NCBI GenBank assembly: GCA_019459485.1
Contig: JAIBEZ010000112.1
Location: 1-64,000 of the forward strand
Source: Prolixibacteraceae bacterium
GTDB lineage: Bacteria; Bacteroidota; Bacteroidia; Bacteroidales; Prolixibacteraceae
Direction of reading: 5' to 3'
DNA length: 64,000 nt
How positions within the stretch are numbered: the stretch's first letter is position 1; each line of letters opens with the position of its first letter. The notes beneath the pieces were generated by a model that was not told where the DNA came from, did no database searches, and was given only the letters and a program-made list of their open reading frames with translations. Positions 14,979 through 61,299 of this stretch are shown piece after piece. The translations under genes and the position numbers were made by a program.

Positions 14979-15383
14979 ATGGATTATAATGACAACAGTT
15001 ATTTGTGGGATGGGAAAACAGTTTTGATCGTTGAAGACAATGAAACGAGTAATATTTATTTTGAAGCTGCCCTCCGGAAAACAAAATCTCAACTAATATG
15101 GGCAAAAAATGGCCTTGATGCAGTTGAAATTGTTAGAAACAACCACGTCGATTTGATTTTGATGGACATCAATATGCCCAAAATGGATGGAATTGAAGCC
15201 ACCCGAATTATTAAAACCGAATTTCCGTCTATCATTATTGTCGTTCAAACTGCTTTTGTCCTTTCAGGTGAGGAAAAGTTATGCATGGAAGCCGGATGCG
15301 ACGAATTTATCACAAAACCAATTCGCCTGAAATATCTTCTTGATACCATCGATCATTATTTGGCCACAGTCAAAGAGAAATAA
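14979..15383 (+). CDS. Response regulator (receiver only)
   Basis: LIVEDNETS, LILMDINMPKMDG, ITKPIR; start chosen at 14979. Confidence 0.85.
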   Translation: MDYNDNSYLWDGKTVLIVEDNETSNIYFEAALRKTKSQLIWAKNGLDAVEIVRNNHVDLILMDINMPKMDGIEATRIIKTEFPSIIIVVQTAFVLSGEEKLCMEAGCDEFITKPIRLKYLLDTIDHYLATVKEK

Positions 15384-16567
15384 GCGCCAAATTGTGTCTC
15401 TTTATCAGGATCAACCAATGAAACAAAACCGGAACTTAGCTTCCCGTTTCTCATTTTTATTGGTTTTTCCAGAGTCATGTTATCAGCGAATCTCATGAAT
15501 TCGCCGCGGGAACCGTAAAAAAGCGCAAATTTTCCTGTTGTGCCACTATGAGTTTTCTTTTCAATTTGTGTTGTCAAAATCCCCATGTTCATCCTGCTGT
15601 TTATTTCTATGCAAGGCTGAATTTTCAATCCTTCTTTTTCTCGGTATATCATTGCGTCGATTCCTAAAAAACCACTGTGCAGTTTCGCATACACCGAGTT
15701 TTTCAGTGATTCTTTCAGCAACAGAGCCGTCGCACCGATTTTTGTCTCTATCTCCACGCTAATTACCTGAACGATTTCCGGGTGGATTAAAGTACTTTGA
15801 TACTGCCCATTCGAGTTGGTTTCGAAAACTGAAAATCCTAAATACTCAGGTTCATTGTTACTGATTTTAAACTGAAATGAAAAATCCAGTACTTTATCCA
15901 GAAAAGGCTCAGCGATAAGATATTTTTGCTGATTTAAAATTCCTGAAATCCATTGCTTATTTGATGTATTGAGTGTTGGTTTGCGGATAATCTGGATTCC
16001 TCGTCCGGAGGAACTCATGGGCGCTTTCAGAACCAGCGGAATATGCTTTTTCAGAAGTTTTTCAATTTCCTCAATGCTGTTGGCTTTTGTTCCGATCAGT
16101 TCCTGATCGACGAAAAATTCTTTGGGGTTTTGTTCCAGAAAGTCAGTCAGAAAATGCAGGGACGTAATTCGTTCAAACAATGTTTTGTGATCTTCCTTCC
16201 AGATATATACAGGACTTTCACGAAATTTGTGCGAACATTTTTCTTTCAGTTCTTTCAGGTAGAAGTGGGCAGCCGGACTCCAGCCCCAGGGGTAAATCGA
16301 TCCAATTGTTTCAGTTTTTCCTGAAATCAGTTCTTTCAGGGAACAAAATTCAGGCATTTCAAATCCTGCATCGGTTAATTTCAGTATGAATTCTTTGGAT
16401 GGCATTTTCTCAGTTAAAACGAAATCCCGCGATTTGCCGAAAACAAAAGGTAAAACAGAACAATCACGCTCAAATTCGCGCAGCAAGCGGGGCGGCATGT
16501 AGCTAAACGATCCGTTGGCAACTGCTAATTCGCAGGTTGGATTAAAATAGAAAACATCAGGAGCCAT
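15356..16567 (-). CDS. Hypothetical protein with ATP-grasp-like features
   Basis: 403 aa; PLVLKAPMSSSGRGIQIIRK ... EPFLDKVLDFSFQFKI ... QPCIEINSRMNMG. Confidence 0.55.
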   Translation of the reverse strand: MAPDVFYFNPTCELAVANGSFSYMPPRLLREFERDCSVLPFVFGKSRDFVLTEKMPSKEFILKLTDAGFEMPEFCSLKELISGKTETIGSIYPWGWSPAAHFYLKELKEKCSHKFRESPVYIWKEDHKTLFERITSLHFLTDFLEQNPKEFFVDQELIGTKANSIEEIEKLLKKHIPLVLKAPMSSSGRGIQIIRKPTLNTSNKQWISGILNQQKYLIAEPFLDKVLDFSFQFKISNNEPEYLGFSVFETNSNGQYQSTLIHPEIVQVISVEIETKIGATALLLKESLKNSVYAKLHSGFLGIDAMIYREKEGLKIQPCIEINSRMNMGILTTQIEKKTHSGTTGKFALFYGSRGEFMRFADNMTLEKPIKMRNGKLSSGFVSLVDPDKETQFGAYFSLTVAK

Positions 16568-16650: not shown

Positions 16651-16680
16651 TTTGATTTGTCGATTTTGAATATACATTTG
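16651..16680 (+). promoter_or_regulatory. Bacteroidota-type promoter (-33 TTTG, -7 TACATTTG) for sulfite reductase operon leader
   Basis: TTTG 16651-16654, N18, TACATTTG 16673-16680; matches TTTG/TAnnTTTG consensus. Confidence 0.6.
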
Positions 16681-16718
16681 CAGAATCAAAATAATAACAG
16701 ACCGTAAAGTGTTTTTCT

Positions 16719-16820
16719 ATGTGTAATTTTTCTTCTGAAATAGCAAAAATGAATTCTGCCAGCAACATGGATATGTGTATGTGGTTAAATTCTCAATTTC
16801 AGAAGATAGAAAAATTGTAG
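16719..16820 (+). CDS. Putative 33-aa leader peptide MCNFSSEIAKMNSASNMDMCMWLNSQFQKIEKL
   Basis: Short ORF between promoter and intrinsic terminator; 5 Met and 2 Cys with M-D-M-C-M-W cluster. Confidence 0.6.
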   Translation: MCNFSSEIAKMNSASNMDMCMWLNSQFQKIEKL

Positions 16821-16877
16821 GTGGATTTTACAATGATATTTACAAGCTCTTCTGGAATCCGGAAGAGCTTTTTTTTT
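16731..16877 (+). promoter_or_regulatory. Putative ribosome-mediated transcription attenuator
   Basis: Seg1 TCTTCTGAAAT 16731-16741 pairs with seg2 ATTTCAGAAGA 16796-16806; seg2 pairs with seg3 TCTTCTGGAAT 16848-16858; seg3 pairs with seg4 CCGGAAGAGCT 16859-16869 then T8. Confidence 0.7.
16845..16877 (+). terminator. Intrinsic terminator in 5' leader
   Basis: AGCTCTTCTGG-AAT-CCGGAAGAGCT followed by TTTTTTTT. Confidence 0.85.
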
Positions 16878-16895
16878 ACAATAAGTTAATAATAA

Positions 16896-17126
16896 ATGGC
16901 AGAGAAATCATACAGGAGCATAGCTAAATCGGTATCGTGGCGCACGATCGGAACACTTGATACCATTCTGATTTCGATGCTTATTACCGGAAAACTCGAC
17001 TTGGCTCTTGCAATCGGAGGGGTGGAAGTATTTACCAAAATGATACTTTACTATTTGCATGAAAGAACCTGGAACAGAATAAAATTCGGGCGTATTAAAA
17101 ATACTGGAAGTGATTATCAGATTTAA
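16896..17126 (+). CDS. DUF2061 small membrane protein
   Basis: 76 aa; SYRSIAKSVSWRTIGTLDTILISMLITG...HERTWNRI pattern of DUF2061. Confidence 0.8.
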   Translation: MAEKSYRSIAKSVSWRTIGTLDTILISMLITGKLDLALAIGGVEVFTKMILYYLHERTWNRIKFGRIKNTGSDYQI

Positions 17127-17139
17127 TACAACTAAAGTA

Positions 17140-17622
17140 ATGACGAAGAACTATTTGCCCATATCAATTGATATTTCTGATGGAAAAATACTGATAATTG
17201 GAGGCGGACACAGTGCATTGAAGAAAATCAGGATTTTACAGCGTTTTGATGCGAACCTTGAAGTTGTTGCCGAAAACATCATTGACGAGATTCTTGCAAG
17301 TGGAATTACCTGTTTCCAAAAACGATACGAAAAGAGTGATCTGAAAGGCTACCTGATGCTTTATTCGTGTACCAACAACGAAGAACTCGACCGGCAGATT
17401 GCACTTGACGGGAGGGAAGCAGGTGTTTTAGTCAACATTCACGACAAGCCTTCGCTTTGCCAGTTTGTTTCACCAGCTATCTATAAAGATGGAAATATTA
17501 ATGTTGCAGTAAGCTCAAATGCCCAGGACGTTTATGAATCCATCCGTTTACGCAATCTGATTCAGGAATATTTGGAAAAGGAAAAAGAAGGAAAAAGAAG
17601 GAACAGGCAAGGGCACAGGTAA
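17140..17622 (+). CDS. Siroheme synthase N-terminal-like (precorrin-2 dehydrogenase)
   Basis: YLPISIDISDGKILIIGGGHSALKKIRIL Rossmann motif; start chosen at 17140. Confidence 0.85.
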   Translation: MTKNYLPISIDISDGKILIIGGGHSALKKIRILQRFDANLEVVAENIIDEILASGITCFQKRYEKSDLKGYLMLYSCTNNEELDRQIALDGREAGVLVNIHDKPSLCQFVSPAIYKDGNINVAVSSNAQDVYESIRLRNLIQEYLEKEKEGKRRNRQGHR

Positions 17623-17698: not shown

Positions 17699-19474
17699 AT
17701 GACCATACAATTAAGTCCTTTAAATGAACAACAGTTAGGCGCTTTATCAAGTCTTTCGGCTGGATTAAACAGGGAACAGTTACTCTGGTTAAACGGCTAT
17801 TTTCAAGGATTGCTGGCATCATCATCCGGTGTACCGCCAGTCAATGTAGCTGTTCAGGCAAAAAGCAATAAAAAACTAACAATCCTGTACGGTACTCATA
17901 CAGGACGAAGCAAAACCATTGCAGGAAAGCTGTCTGAAAAGCTCGCCAACAAAGGTGTTGAAGTAAACGCCATCGCACTTGACGAGTATAAAACCCGTCA
18001 ACTTGCGTCAGAAACCAATGTGGTTTTCATCGTCAGCACGCACGGCGAAGGCGAACCACCGGCAATGGCTGAAGATTTCCACGCTTTTATTACCGGAAAA
18101 CGCTCCCCGAAATTACCCGGACTAAGCTACGCCGTGGTTGCTTTGGGCGATAAAAGTTACAAACTGTTTTGCAAAACCGGTATTGATATCGACCTTGCGC
18201 TTACCCATGCAGGAGCGCAAACCATTTTGCCCATTTTGAAACTGGATGTTGATTTTGAAGAAGATGTCGATCGCTGGATCAATCAGTTCGCCAATGTTTT
18301 TGCCGAAACTGAAGCAAGTTCAAATGTGTTTGAAAGTGTCAGTACTACTGCCAAAGTTCAGGAATACACCCGAAGAAATCCTTTTCAGGCAACTGTACTC
18401 GATAAAGTAAAAATTACCGGACGTGATTCTGACAAGGAAGTTTATCATGTTGAGTTGTCGCTCGAAGGCTCTGGCATAACCTATGAACCGGGCGATTCGG
18501 TCGGAATTCTGGCCAGTAATCCAACAGTTTTGGTCGATGAAATTTTGAGATTCAAAGGATTTGACGGTTCAGAAGCAGTGACAATTAAAGAAGATGAATT
18601 TTCAATTAAAGAGGCACTTTTAAATTACCTTGAAATTACTGTTTTGACCCGCGATGTTATTCAGAATTATTTTGAAAAAACAGCTGATCCAAAGCTTCAG
18701 GAAGTAATTGAAAATGAAGAAAAATTGGATCAATATCTATACGGACACGATGTTTTGGACTTGCTGGAGGAATTTCCGGCAGAACTGACTGCCCAGGAGT
18801 TGGTTCAGGTTCTGCGTAGTTTTCCTGCCCGACTGTATTCCATTTCATCCAGTCAACTGGCAGTAGGCGAAGAAGTTCACATTACCGTTTCGAGGGTTCG
18901 CTATTCAAGAAATGGAAGGGAACGTTCCGGCGCATGTTCAACTTATCTGGCCGATCAAATTGAACCCGATTCGCTTGTTCCCGTCTTCATTGAGAAAAAC
19001 CCGGCATTTAAACTTCCTGAAAATGAAGAAACTCCGGTCATTCTGGTAGGAGCGGGTACAGGTGTCGCTCCTTACCGGGCATTCCTTCAGCACCGCGAGG
19101 CCAGCAATCAGAAAGGAAAAACCTGGCTTTTCTTTGGCGAACGGCGGTTCAGTTCTGATTTTCTATACCAGCTTGAATGGCAAAAACTGATCAAAGACGG
19201 TTATCTCGAAAAGATTGATGTAGCCTTTTCGCGCGATCAGGAGCAAAAAATATACGTGCAGCACCGGCTTATCGAACAACAAAAAGAAATCTTTGAATGG
19301 CTGAACAAAGGCGCAAGTATTTACCTTTGCGGCGATATGAAACAGATGGCCCGGGATGTTCAGAAAGCATTGTTGCAAATTTTTGAGACGGAAGGTGGAA
19401 TGAATGAAGAAAAAGCCATTGAATTCCTGAAAAAATTAAAAAAGGAAAAACGGTTTCAAACGGATGTTTATTGA
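17699..19474 (+). CDS. cysJ: Sulfite reductase flavoprotein subunit
   Basis: flavodoxin YGTHTGRSKTIAGKL, FAD/NAD domains RLYSISSS, GAGTGVAPYRAFLQHR; C-terminal FQTDVY. Confidence 0.92.
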   Translation: MTIQLSPLNEQQLGALSSLSAGLNREQLLWLNGYFQGLLASSSGVPPVNVAVQAKSNKKLTILYGTHTGRSKTIAGKLSEKLANKGVEVNAIALDEYKTRQLASETNVVFIVSTHGEGEPPAMAEDFHAFITGKRSPKLPGLSYAVVALGDKSYKLFCKTGIDIDLALTHAGAQTILPILKLDVDFEEDVDRWINQFANVFAETEASSNVFESVSTTAKVQEYTRRNPFQATVLDKVKITGRDSDKEVYHVELSLEGSGITYEPGDSVGILASNPTVLVDEILRFKGFDGSEAVTIKEDEFSIKEALLNYLEITVLTRDVIQNYFEKTADPKLQEVIENEEKLDQYLYGHDVLDLLEEFPAELTAQELVQVLRSFPARLYSISSSQLAVGEEVHITVSRVRYSRNGRERSGACSTYLADQIEPDSLVPVFIEKNPAFKLPENEETPVILVGAGTGVAPYRAFLQHREASNQKGKTWLFFGERRFSSDFLYQLEWQKLIKDGYLEKIDVAFSRDQEQKIYVQHRLIEQQKEIFEWLNKGASIYLCGDMKQMARDVQKALLQIFETEGGMNEEKAIEFLKKLKKEKRFQTDVY

Positions 19475-19770: not shown

Positions 19771-21471
19771 ATGAGCGATAATATAAATTGGAGTGAATTA
19801 TCAGAAACTGAAAAAATTAAATACGAAAGCAACTATTTACGTGGCACGCTGGTCGAAAGTCTGGCTGACCCGATAACAGGTTCAATTGCATTTGCCGACA
19901 CGCAGATATCCAAGTTTCACGGAATGTACCAGCAATTCGACCGCGATCTGGAGAAAGAACGCAAACGTCAAAAGCTGGAACCTGCCTTTTCGTTTCTTAT
20001 TCGCGTTCGAATTCCGGGTGGGGTAGTGAGCCCGTCGCAATGGTTGAAAATGGATGAAATTTCGGAACAATATGCCAACCATACGCTGAAACTGACTACC
20101 CGTCAGACGTTTCAACTGCATGGGGTAATTAAAACCAACCTGAAGAAAACCATTCAGGCAATGAATGATAGTTTGATGGATACGATTGCTGCCTGTGGCG
20201 ATGTCAACCGAAATGTGATGTGCCATCCGAACCCGGCAGAATCGCCGTTACACGCTGAAATGCACGAGACTGCCCGCCGGATCAGCGAACATTTGCTGCC
20301 ATCAACTACTGCCTATCACGAAATCTGGCTCGACAAGAAATTGATTGCGGACAGCAAACAGGATGTTGAACCAATCTATGGCGACCGGTATCTTCCGCGT
20401 AAATTTAAAATCGCGGTGGTACTTCCGCCTTACAATGACTGCGATGTGTTTTCACAGGATTTGGGTTTCATTGCCATTGTTGAAAATGGAAAAATTGTTG
20501 GTTACAATGTAGCCGTTGGCGGAGGATTGGGTTCAACCTTCGGCATTCCGGAAGCTTATCCGAGATTGGCCGACGTAATTGGCTTTTGCCTTCCGGACCA
20601 AGTGCTTGAGGTGTCTGAAAAAGTGTTGCTCGTTCAGAAAGACAACGGAAACCGGCAAAACCGCAAGCTTTCCAGAATGAAATATACCATTGACAATCAT
20701 GGTGTCGACTGGTTTAAAAAGGAAGTGGAGAAGTACCTGGGTTATGAATTTCAGGAAGCAAAGCCCTTCGCTTTTATTCGCAATGGCGACCGGCTTGGCT
20801 GGAAAAAAGGCACAGATTCGAAATGGAACCTGACTCTTTTCGTTGAAGGAGGACGCGTTGCCGACAAAGGGGATTACAAAATGAAATCAGCTTTGCGCGA
20901 AGTGGCTCAAACTATTGCCGGTCAATTTATCCTGACTGGAAACCAGAACGTGATTATTGCAAATGTGACTTCCGAAGAGAAGAAGAAAATAAGCCTGATT
21001 TTAAAAGAAAACGGCGTTCTACCCGGTGAAATTTCAGGCCTTCGCCAAAATTCAATTGCATGTGTCGCGCTGAATACCTGCGGTTTGGCTTTTGCTGAGG
21101 CTGAAAGGTATCTGCCAATACTGATCAGCAAAATTGAAACAATTCTCGATCAGCACGGTTTGTTAAAAGAAGAAATTGTGATTCGGATGACCGGTTGCCC
21201 GAATGGTTGCGGAAGGCCGTATCTGGCTGAAATTGGCTTTGTCGGTAAATCAGAAGGTCACTACAACCTCTATTTGGGCGGAAATTTCATCGGAACCCGC
21301 CTGAATACCCTGTACAAGGAAACGCTTACCGAGGACGAAATCCTGGCCGAATTGAAGCCAATCATTGCCGATTACGCCGCAAATCGGACTGAAGGTGAAA
21401 AGCTGGGCGATTTTGTGATCCGCAAACAATACGTGAAAGAAACATTGAAAGGCTCAGATTTCAGACATTAA
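19771..21471 (+). CDS. cysI: Sulfite reductase hemoprotein subunit
   Basis: siroheme/4Fe-4S motifs CVALNTCGLAFAEAER and RMTGCPNGCGRPYLAEIGFVG; start chosen at 19771. Confidence 0.93.
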   Translation: MSDNINWSELSETEKIKYESNYLRGTLVESLADPITGSIAFADTQISKFHGMYQQFDRDLEKERKRQKLEPAFSFLIRVRIPGGVVSPSQWLKMDEISEQYANHTLKLTTRQTFQLHGVIKTNLKKTIQAMNDSLMDTIAACGDVNRNVMCHPNPAESPLHAEMHETARRISEHLLPSTTAYHEIWLDKKLIADSKQDVEPIYGDRYLPRKFKIAVVLPPYNDCDVFSQDLGFIAIVENGKIVGYNVAVGGGLGSTFGIPEAYPRLADVIGFCLPDQVLEVSEKVLLVQKDNGNRQNRKLSRMKYTIDNHGVDWFKKEVEKYLGYEFQEAKPFAFIRNGDRLGWKKGTDSKWNLTLFVEGGRVADKGDYKMKSALREVAQTIAGQFILTGNQNVIIANVTSEEKKKISLILKENGVLPGEISGLRQNSIACVALNTCGLAFAEAERYLPILISKIETILDQHGLLKEEIVIRMTGCPNGCGRPYLAEIGFVGKSEGHYNLYLGGNFIGTRLNTLYKETLTEDEILAELKPIIADYAANRTEGEKLGDFVIRKQYVKETLKGSDFRH

Positions 21472-22443: not shown

Positions 22444-23178
22444 ATGTCCTCACTCATTTCCATAGTTGGCGCGGGTCCAGGCGATCCTGAATTACTTACG
22501 GTAAAAGCGCTGAAGCGTATTCAGGAAGCGGATTGTATTTTACACGATGCATTGGTGAGCGATGAAATTATGAATCTTTCAAGGCCTGGTGCTCAACGCG
22601 TTTATGTTGGAAAATTGTATCAGGATGGACAGGATCAGACCGACCGGCAAGAATGGATCAATCAGCTAATTATTGAATTGGCAGGAAAAGGACAAAAGGT
22701 GGTTCGCCTTAAATCAGGAGATCCGATGATTTTTGGTCGCGGAGCCGAAGAAATCCGCTTTTGCATTGAAAACAACCTGAACTACGAAGTAATTCCCGGA
22801 GTAACTTCAGCGCTTGGAGCCGCATCACTGTATGGAATCCCGCTAACAGAACGTGGCAAGAACAGCATGGTGCTTTTCGGTACAGGCCATTACTGTGAAG
22901 GCGATTTTTGCGACCTCGAATCGTTCGTTTCAGTCCTGAATTCAGGTTCACCGGTGATCTTTTTTATGGGGCTGAATAAACTTGTGAAACTGGCAAATCG
23001 TCTGATGGATCATGCTGTTTCCCCCGAAATAAAAGTTCAGATTCTAAGCAAAGTTTCGCAGCCCGATGCTACCACTTTCGAAAGCACACTCGGAAACATT
23101 GAGCAGCTAATGGCCAATGAAAAACCGCCTATGCCAGCGCTTGTTATTATTGGCAAAAATGCGAAAAAGTTAAGGTAA
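22444..23178 (+). CDS. cobA: Uroporphyrinogen-III C-methyltransferase (SUMT)
   Basis: SIVGAGPGDPELLTVKALKRIQEADCILHDALV; VVRLKSGDPMIFGRGAEE; VIPGVTSA. Confidence 0.93.
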   Translation: MSSLISIVGAGPGDPELLTVKALKRIQEADCILHDALVSDEIMNLSRPGAQRVYVGKLYQDGQDQTDRQEWINQLIIELAGKGQKVVRLKSGDPMIFGRGAEEIRFCIENNLNYEVIPGVTSALGAASLYGIPLTERGKNSMVLFGTGHYCEGDFCDLESFVSVLNSGSPVIFFMGLNKLVKLANRLMDHAVSPEIKVQILSKVSQPDATTFESTLGNIEQLMANEKPPMPALVIIGKNAKKLR

Positions 23179-59390: not shown

Positions 59391-61299
59391 ATCGAGTAGG
59401 AGAAACGGGATTATTTCCCGTTTCGTCCTCTCACACCACCGTACGTGCCGTTCGGCATACGGCGGTTCATAGAATTTAGAGCATTGTTATAAACTTCGGT
59501 AAACGAAAATAACCCAAGGTCTTTGAGGTAATTATTTGTCAGTGAACATGCTAAAATAGGACTATTGGATGTGTGCCAGTAGCCTTTTCTTGTATTGGCA
59601 TATTCCCACGCTTTGAAATAGTTGATGCCTAATTTGACAAGATTCTTATGTCTGCATCCAATTTTCTTCCATTGCTTCCAAAAACACATCCGTAACCTTC
59701 GGCGCATCCATTCATCAAGACGTTGGCAATGTTTTCGCATATCGGCGATCTTGTAATAGTTGACCCACCCTTTGATCAGCAAGTCCAAATCTGTTATTCG
59801 CTCCTCAATGCTTTTCCCATTGCTCCGCTTGGTATAGGTTTTAACTTTCGCTTTTATTCTGGCCAAGGTTTTAATATGTAGTTTCACCTTTACGCCATCT
59901 TTGGAATAATAAAAACTAAAACCTAGAAACTTTCGCTTGGTCGGGCTATCAACAGCACTTTTCGTCTGGTTCACCTTTAGTTGCAATTCCTCTTCGATGA
60001 ACTTTCCAATACTGGCCATTACCCTACTGCCTGCCCTCTTGCTTTTGACGTAGATGTTACAGTCATCCGCATATCGGCAGAAACGATGGCCTCTTTTCTC
60101 CAGTTCTTTGTCCAGTTCGTGCAACATCACATTCGATAATAACGGGCTTAATGGACCACCTTGAGGTGTCCCTTCGTCCGATGGACTGAACAGCCCCCCA
60201 ATCATTACCCCGATTTCAAATACGCCCGGATAAGTTTCAGTAAACGTTTGTCTCCTATCCTTTCGGACAAAAGGTACATCAGTTTATCGTGGTTTACCCG
60301 GTCGAAGAATTTCTCCAAATCAATATCAACTACTGTTTTATACCCTTCGCTGATGTACGCCTGTGCCTGTTTGATGGCTTGGTGTGCATTGCGATTGGGG
60401 CGAAAACCGTAACTGTGCGTGGAAAACTCTTTTTCAAATATCGGCGTCAATATCTGGGATATCGCCTGTTGGATCATCCGGTCGGTTACCGTGGGCAACC
60501 CCAACAATCTCACTCCTCCATCCGGCTTGTCTATCTCGACCCGCTTGACCGGCTGGGGTTTGTAAGTACCTTCCAAAATACTCTGCTTAAAACTTTCGCC
60601 TTGTTGCCGCAAGAATGGCAGAAGTGATTCTACCTTCATCTTGTCAATCCCGGGGCTGCCATTATTCTGTTTTACCCGCTTATAAGCTTCGTTCAGGTTG
60701 CCCCGTTCCAGAATTGTTTCAAGTAAGTACCTGGTGTTTAATTTGCTCTCGTCTTTCAATTTTGTTCCCGCCTTGGTATAGCTCGGCTCTCCTGCATTAA
60801 CTCGGGCTTCCATCCCTTCTTCCTGCTGGTAGTTCCGGAATTGTCCGGAATTGGCTGCTTTCTTTACTTTGTCCATGAGGATTACAAAATTTAAGACATC
60901 CTACGTTCTGCCCTTCTCCCGAGTAATCGGAGTACTATGGCTTCTGCTGACTTCTGACAGTTCAGTCACACATTACTGCATGGGTTGGTGCTTCTGAAAA
61001 AAAAACATCCGCACCGTTTCGGTCAGATCTCCCCGGGTAAGAACGATAACTTTCATCTCATATACCTGTTGCATTTACTCCAAAGGGTTCGGGTAGTATG
61101 GGACTTTGCTTTGTTGCGCAAGCTCGTCCACCCTTTGTAAGCCTTGATATGCACTTCCTGTTCGTCAGGCCGAGATTTTGCCGCTGGGCTTCCTTCAGAT
61201 TCGCAGTCACCCGCGACACCCTTGCCTTTGGCTAATGATTCCTACTACCAAGCTCATAGCGGACTTGCACCGCCAAGTTATCACCCATGCCGGGCGCAC
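59391..61299 (-). mobile_element. Group II (class IIC-like) intron
   Basis: 5' end GTGCGCCCGGCATGGGTGATAACTTGGCGGTGCAAGTCCGCTATGAGCTTGGTAG at 61299; domain V-like CCGCCGTATGCCGAACGGCACGTACGGTGGTGTGAGAGG at 59428-59468; encoded RT; 3' end about 59391 is inferred. Confidence 0.85.
59411..60876 (-). pseudogene. ltrA: Group II intron reverse transcriptase/maturase split by frameshift
   Basis: ORFs 60205..60876 (ends LIRAYLKSG*) and 59411..60205 (VMIGGLFSPSDEGTPQGGPLSPLLSNVML, YADD) join with 1-nt change at C-run 60208-60211. Confidence 0.88.

Follow-up and report, generated by a model that had tools for sequence, protein, structure and literature searches.

Background

The trp, his and pheA attenuators exemplify the principle of ribosome-mediated transcription attenuation. 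To our knowledge, little has been described about the regulation of sulfur assimilation in the Bacteroidota. Several described systems bear on the locus reported here. Within the phylum, the Bacteroid-trp RNA motif (RF01692) was put forward as a candidate cis-regulatory RNA (PMC2864571), leader-peptide attenuators were reported upstream of amino-acid operons in Flavobacterium psychrophilum, with the amino acids and genes left unnamed in the main text (PMC9723704), and leader-like sORFs were reported for B. thetaiotaomicron (PMC7366714). Cysteine codons in leader ORFs are known from two other groups: mycobacteria, in which polycysteine leader ORFs precede cys operons and no conserved terminator hairpin was found (PMC1262725; for Cys leaders in mycobacteria see also Canestrari 2020, as cited in PMC9031893), and Rhodobacterales, in which the uORFC-8-2 motif upstream of cysS combines a uORF with Cys codons and a terminator (PMC8632094). 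Here we analyze the leader of an assimilatory sulfite-reductase operon that is located in a 64,000-nucleotide stretch of DNA from a Prolixibacteraceae bacterium; the whole stretch is referred to as the window.

Results

Layout of the leader and of the operon

The features of the locus are collected in Table 1. The initial annotation had proposed a Met/Cys-sensing attenuator at 16685-16880, and its coordinates and letters proved correct to the base, including the four segments, which it had delimited as 16731-16741 (TCTTCTGAAAT), 16796-16806 (ATTTCAGAAGA), 16848-16858 (TCTTCTGGAAT) and 16859-16869 (CCGGAAGAGCT). The pairing of segments 1 and 2 (1:2) is likewise present, but the helix is longer than had been stated and continues in the fold via AATTTTTC / GATAGAAAAATT. 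The folding energy of the complete leader is -49.6 kcal/mol, whereas shuffled sequences average -34.1 (z = -4.0; 0/200 shuffles), and the terminator (16844-16870) consists of a 12-bp stem with a 3-nt loop, followed by T7A. This 3:4 hairpin is the sole terminator-like site between 16560 and 17000, where 0.1 would be expected from shuffles, and since the upstream gene (15356-16567) is divergent from the leader, it would act solely on the transcripts of this leader. The cluster of the window contains one Cys codon (with a further Cys at codon 2) and is followed by a Trp codon where relatives carry Cys; a Cys-poor cluster (MDMCMW) characterizes the window's own clade, which counts against the interpretation given below.

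Table 1. Coordinates of the leader elements and of the genes that follow them in the window.
Feature	Position	Strand	Description	Evidence
Promoter motif, Bacteroidota-type	16651..16680	+	-33 TTTG and -7 TACATTTG; TTTG-N18-TACATTTG	sequence motif
Leader ORF	16719..16820	+	33 codons, product MCNFSSEIAKMNSASNMDMCMWLNSQFQKIEKL	homologous Met/Cys ORFs precede the same operon in relatives
Segment 1, extended	16724..16741	+	5' arm of 1:2 hairpin	fold; cognate-vs-swapped test
Putative control codons	16767..16781	+	Met-Asp-Met-Cys-Met, codons 17-21	relatives have an MCMC-type cluster in this position
Segment 2	16795..16807	+	partner of 1 or 3	13 nt past control cluster
Segment 3	16844..16855	+	terminator 5' arm	alignment, pairing, terminator scan
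Segment 4	16859..16870	+	terminator 3' arm	pairing, terminator scan
T-tract	16871..16877	+	part of intrinsic terminator	terminator scan
DUF2061 membrane protein	16896..17126	+	first structural gene	PF09834, E 4e-22
Siroheme synthase N-terminal domain protein	17143..17622	+		PF13241; TIGR01470
cysJ	17702..19474	+	sulfite reductase flavoprotein	TIGR01931 above cut-off
cysI	19771..21471	+	sulfite reductase hemoprotein	TIGR02041 above cut-off
SUMT	22444..23178	+	uroporphyrinogen-III C-methyltransferase	TIGR01469 above cut-off

The promoter motif starts 68 nt 5' of the leader ATG, from which a 5' leader of about 30 nt would be expected. The motif recurs 54-83 nt before the ATG of 31 leaders, mostly at -68; all 31 belong to the cysJI group, and shuffled regions contain the motif in 0.9% of cases. 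With respect to the operon itself, Pfam and NCBIfam returned the content that had been annotated before (DUF2061, siroheme-synthase N domain, CysJ, CysI and SUMT), together with an NAD-binding protein listed between CysI and SUMT.

A small hairpin (ATTGTA/TACAAT, 16814-16836) lies directly past the stop codon and is possibly a pause hairpin; it varies within the genus (GGTG/CACC, GGC/GCC) and in the alignment the more distant leaders are without it. Elsewhere the window contains a group II intron (59391-61216, - strand; RF02001, RF01998, RF00029).

Conservation upstream of cysJI

Homologues of the DUF2061 gene were sought in 61 related genomes and the DNA upstream was read. A short ORF with MCMC-type codons precedes the same-genus orthologues with intact upstream DNA and several orthologues of other genera; these ORFs end over CAGAAGG or a variant thereof, and are followed by CCCTTCTG ... 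CAGAGGGGC and a T-run. The carriers are Prolixibacteraceae, including Sunxiuqinia and Draconibacterium aestuarii, and one Ignavibacteria MAG. All dissected cysJI leaders (25/25) keep the Met/Cys cluster, the spacer, the 2:3 complementarity, the terminator and the T-tract. A covariance model (R1) built from 24 dissected leaders matched in 86/141 genomes and 18/23 genera of the Prolixibacteraceae; these matches come from related sequences, which do not count as independent cases, and R1, through which the larger set was collected, had itself been trained on the first 24. In 394 genomes of other Bacteroidales R1 gave 3 weak matches, none with a convincing leader. The initial annotation had staked its proposal on conservation in relatives, and we found the ORF, the cluster, the spacing and the three pairings conserved, with compensatory changes.

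The DUF2061 loci of Flavobacteriaceae and Campylobacterales have no such leader, and in the Flavobacteriaceae a different ORF, which looks like an Rrf2-type regulator, takes its place; the presence of DUF2061 as such therefore does not entail the leader. One of the relatives (G013) has two additional DUF2061 copies of more distant sequence, which are also without a leader, and one locus (L093) initially taken for an MCMCFC leader was dropped because no terminator lies at the right place. In Prolixibacter-like genomes (L143; G028:C12:90186-90322) the leader lies further upstream, separated from DUF2061 by ~2.3 kb and two other genes. In the assembly of the window DUF2061 occurs a second time (G000:C16:22258-22635; L028, L116), preceded by a leader of its own that has diverged and resembles that of another species (L009); this copy may therefore represent contamination (3.7% reported).

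Covariation and coding signature

Within a 24-sequence alignment, 97.7% of the cells of pairing 2:3 contained standard pairs, with 13 double-change cells (4.7 in shuffles; 0/500 as high), and 97.2% of those of pairing 3:4, with 17 double-change cells (5.7 in shuffles; 0/500 as high); because the sequences are related, the shuffle p-values are not strict probabilities. When the partner was slid by 1-3 columns, pairing fell to 44-62% (2:3) and 36-68% (3:4). An alignment-independent test, in which region 2 of each leader was combined with the terminator arm of the same leader or with those of other leaders, gave -13.9 kcal/mol for cognate versus -11.5 kcal/mol for swapped 2:3 duplexes over 34 dereplicated cysJI leaders (p 0.0002), and for 1:2 duplexes the values in the same set were -14.2 versus -10.9 kcal/mol (p 0.0002). 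As examples, one leader (L027) combines CAGGAGG in segment 2 with CCTCCTG in segment 3 and CTTCCG in segment 1, where most leaders have CAGAAGG, CCTTCTG and CTTCTG, respectively, and another (L006) has TCTCCTGAA in segment 1 opposite TTCAGGAGG in segment 2. For the cysK leaders alone (see below) cognate and swapped duplexes did not differ significantly (p 0.15 and 0.34), because the segments there scarcely vary.

By its pattern of substitution, the leader ORF evolves as a coding sequence: dN/dS was 0.52 within the window's genus and 0.28 for the cysK leaders. Its Cys codons switch between TGT and TGC. The frame of segment 2 relative to the ATG is constant in 39/40 leaders, and the distance from stop to terminator is represented in all three phases.

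Geometry and proposed mechanism

The end of the cluster and the start of segment 2 are separated by 7-15 nt in 24/25 leaders (24 nt in the other one). A stalled ribosome covers ~10 nt beyond the A-site codon, and this spacing would therefore barely suffice to free segment 2. Downstream, 8-16 nt separate the 3' end of segment 2 from the last base of the stop codon in 24/25 leaders, so that a ribosome at the stop would mask its 3' half. Partition-function folding with ribosome footprints, for which general (E. coli) numbers were taken and which yields model outputs, gave the following medians for the cysJI leaders: with the ribosome at the cluster, segment 3 was paired upstream (antiterminator) with a probability of 0.73; with the ribosome at the stop this was 0.11 and the terminator 0.96; and in the naked RNA 1:2 reached 0.79 and the terminator 0.96. 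In the window the 3:4 duplex is more stable than the 2:3 duplex (-17.5 vs -12.8 kcal/mol), and antitermination would therefore have to be kinetic, as in trp.

The hallmarks of a trp-type attenuator can be recognized in the locus: a cluster of codons for the product amino acids in a short ORF, a 3:4 terminator before the first gene, a 2:3 pairing that excludes 3:4 and lies just past the position of a stalled ribosome, and a 1:2 pairing able to prevent 2:3. On the evidence of sequence, we consider it very probable that the leader is a trp-type ribosome-mediated transcription attenuator by which the assimilatory sulfite-reductase operon is controlled in response to the charging of tRNA-Met and tRNA-Cys. 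With both tRNAs in charged form, a ribosome translating the leader would reach the stop at 16818 and cover the 3' half of segment 2, or alternatively depart, upon which 1:2 would form; with segment 2 occupied either way, 3 would pair with 4 and RNA polymerase would terminate in vivo at 16871-16877. When charging of Met or Cys tRNA falls short, the ribosome would stall on the codons at 16767-16781 with its front edge just before segment 2, which could then pair with the emerging segment 3, block the terminator and allow transcription of the operon.

Between the end of segment 1 and the cluster lie 25 nt, which places segment 1 outside the stalled ribosome. It lies 5' of the control codons, so that the loop of the 1:2 hairpin holds these codons, whereas in trp they are part of segment 1. 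The 1:2 hairpin is most likely the default state in the absence of a ribosome or after its release, and a trailing ribosome near the start codon would be the simplest block to 1:2 during a stall.

Related leaders on other sulfur genes

The weaker R1 matches were fetched and the genes next to them identified. Within the window's genus, 17 of the 20 judgeable cysK genes carry a leader, with clusters such as MYMCCC and MCMCCC, a segment 2 of other sequence (GGGGAAGG, GGAGAAGG) and a terminator with CCTTCC. In other genera, similar Cys-rich leaders precede osmC, cysM and sulfite-reductase genes (L158, L163, L167, L168), and Met-dominated leaders (NMMMCMIMSMSMCMMMSMC; MSMMMAMFMMMWM) precede metY-metX-aspartokinase/homoserine dehydrogenase operons at L153 and, judged by the sequence start, also at L159; at both (L153, 140-399; L159, reverse strand, 95-330) a second Met leader is found just upstream of the first. 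Tandem Met or Met/Cys leaders before met operons also occur at L249, L252, L254 and L264. A phylum-wide sample of 399 genomes contained an R1 match in 23, the window's genome included, and of the other 22 matches 16 precede a gene for O-acetylhomoserine sulfhydrylase (metY; called by NCBIfam at L254 and by near-identical N-terminal sequence at the others). Further matches precede genes for a sulfate-binding protein (L247), rhodanese and sulfite reductase (L256), peroxiredoxin and PALP (L250), and OsmC and a Cys/Met PLP enzyme (L261). At a few of the phylum-level loci (e.g. L245, L254, L263, L266) the segments were read by eye, because automatic assignment had failed there. A SAM-I riboswitch was found only as a second element, directly 3' of the leader or model match, at seven distant metY loci (L245, L246, L253, L257, L260, L265, L266; seven genomes of one family); at L260 it lies downstream of the model match and at L245 leader and riboswitch each have their own terminator.

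Because the sequence model is ignorant of gene function, the coherence of the genes behind the R1 matches is independent support. The codons match the pathway downstream, with Cys prevailing before cysK, Met before metY-metX-aspartokinase and both present before cysJI, as sensing of aminoacyl-tRNA predicts. As far as comparison of sequences can tell, the cysJI leader belongs to a set of Met and/or Cys switches on sulfur genes of Prolixibacteraceae and other Bacteroidota.

Some searches delimit this set. The weak R1 matches at L169, L170 and L175 have no leader, the metY genes of the window's genus have none of the Met/Cys kind, and in the window's own genome R1 together with searches for MCMC/CCC/MMM patterns recovered only the two cysJI leaders and a terminator remnant at cysK. 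At the latter gene the leader ORF was lost and the terminator kept shortly past the upstream gene (G000:C17:191274-192315; L196, L269), as in two near relatives (G009, L191; G014, L195), and most other genomes of the genus retain the leader. A leader with a MACMC cluster and a terminator also precedes the gene for a DUF4395 protein (L165, reverse strand, 231-955), hinting at a sulfur role of DUF4395.

The same codon clusters bear on the question of what would stop the ribosome. Arrest by the nascent peptide (TnaC- or SecM-like and responsive to thiol, metal or sulfide), in place of uncharged tRNA, would agree with the conservation of the Cys/Met cluster at the protein level, and Cys/Met-rich peptides can bind soft metals. 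We nevertheless regard it as unlikely: the order and number of Met and Cys vary freely (MCMC, MYMCMW, MCCMCC, CMCCCQC, MMMCMC), unlike in arrest peptides, and the content tracks the pathway, from Met-dominated before metY-metX-aspartokinase to pure Cys (CCCC) before the peroxiredoxin/PALP operon. A metabolite riboswitch or protein-binding attenuator with an incidental ORF appears very improbable. The terminator and alternative helices alone would suit it and sub-threshold Rfam matches were seen (PyrR site, trpB motif, Phe leader), but the leader matched no Rfam family at cut-off and nothing fitting at E values up to 1, the SAM riboswitches (S-box, SAM-II) gave no aptamer match in the window, the conserved bases are those of the codon cluster and the pairing arms without an aptamer-like core, and the ORF carries a coding signature. 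A constitutive partial terminator behind a chance ORF can practically be dismissed, for although the terminator is strong and short ORFs do arise by chance, the ORF, cluster and spacing are conserved across genera and the antiterminator covaries with the terminator.

Discussion

Beyond the proposed tRNA-sensing attenuator of the cysJI operon, we lean towards the view that sulfur amino-acid synthesis in the Bacteroidota may largely be under a distributed regulon of leader-peptide attenuators, with a Met:Cys mix tuned gene by gene to each branch and at some loci placed in series with another leader or a SAM-I riboswitch, which would allow separate readings of tRNA charging and of SAM. In this regulon the cysJI leader would sit at the branch point and respond to Met and Cys alike, its control codons being held in the 1:2 loop. 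If this is true, the Met and Cys codons at the branch point and the stacks of leader and SAM-I would be clear examples of operons that read tRNA charging and cofactor separately. The leaders offer a concrete and testable answer on sulfur control in the Bacteroidota, as codon swaps predict the response per gene, and the window's genome, which has naturally lost its cysK leader, provides a ready comparison.

The initial annotation knew of no attenuator of this kind in Bacteroidota. In view of the Bacteroid-trp motif (PMC2864571) and the leaders of F. psychrophilum (PMC9723704) this was too broad. For the Met/Cys type, the literature (chiefly openly accessible main texts) yielded no description of such leaders before sulfite-reductase, cysK or metY genes of Bacteroidota, and Rfam has no family matching them. 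Going by the main text on F. psychrophilum, its attenuators share the phylum and the association with amino-acid biosynthesis operons, and some of the metY-type members may already be covered there (PMC9723704). Bacteroid-trp (RF01692) shares the phylum and, by its name, an amino-acid pathway; it is a different family and gave no match in the window. The mycobacterial polycysteine ORFs likewise place sulfur genes under the control of Cys codons in a short leader, but they are leaderless and reported without a conserved terminator hairpin or a Met cluster, whereas the cysJI leader has an intrinsic terminator and, as predicted from the promoter motif, would have a 5' leader. The uORFC-8-2 motif shares the Cys codons in a uORF and the intrinsic terminator, and differs in having two Cys codons inside the first stem, in the gene (cysS) and in its host (Alphaproteobacteria). 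In architecture the cysJI leader resembles the E. coli trp and his/thr/ilv/leu/pheA leaders, with which it shares a short ORF containing codons for the amino acid under regulation, the mutually exclusive 1:2, 2:3 and 3:4 pairings, the intrinsic terminator and a promoter close upstream. Unlike in these, the control codons lie between segments 1 and 2, segment 2 is part of the ORF at its 3' end, the codons represent two amino acids and the host belongs to the Bacteroidota. Trp-type attenuation as such is already known; the pair of amino acids and the position of the control codons in the 1:2 loop appear to be new.
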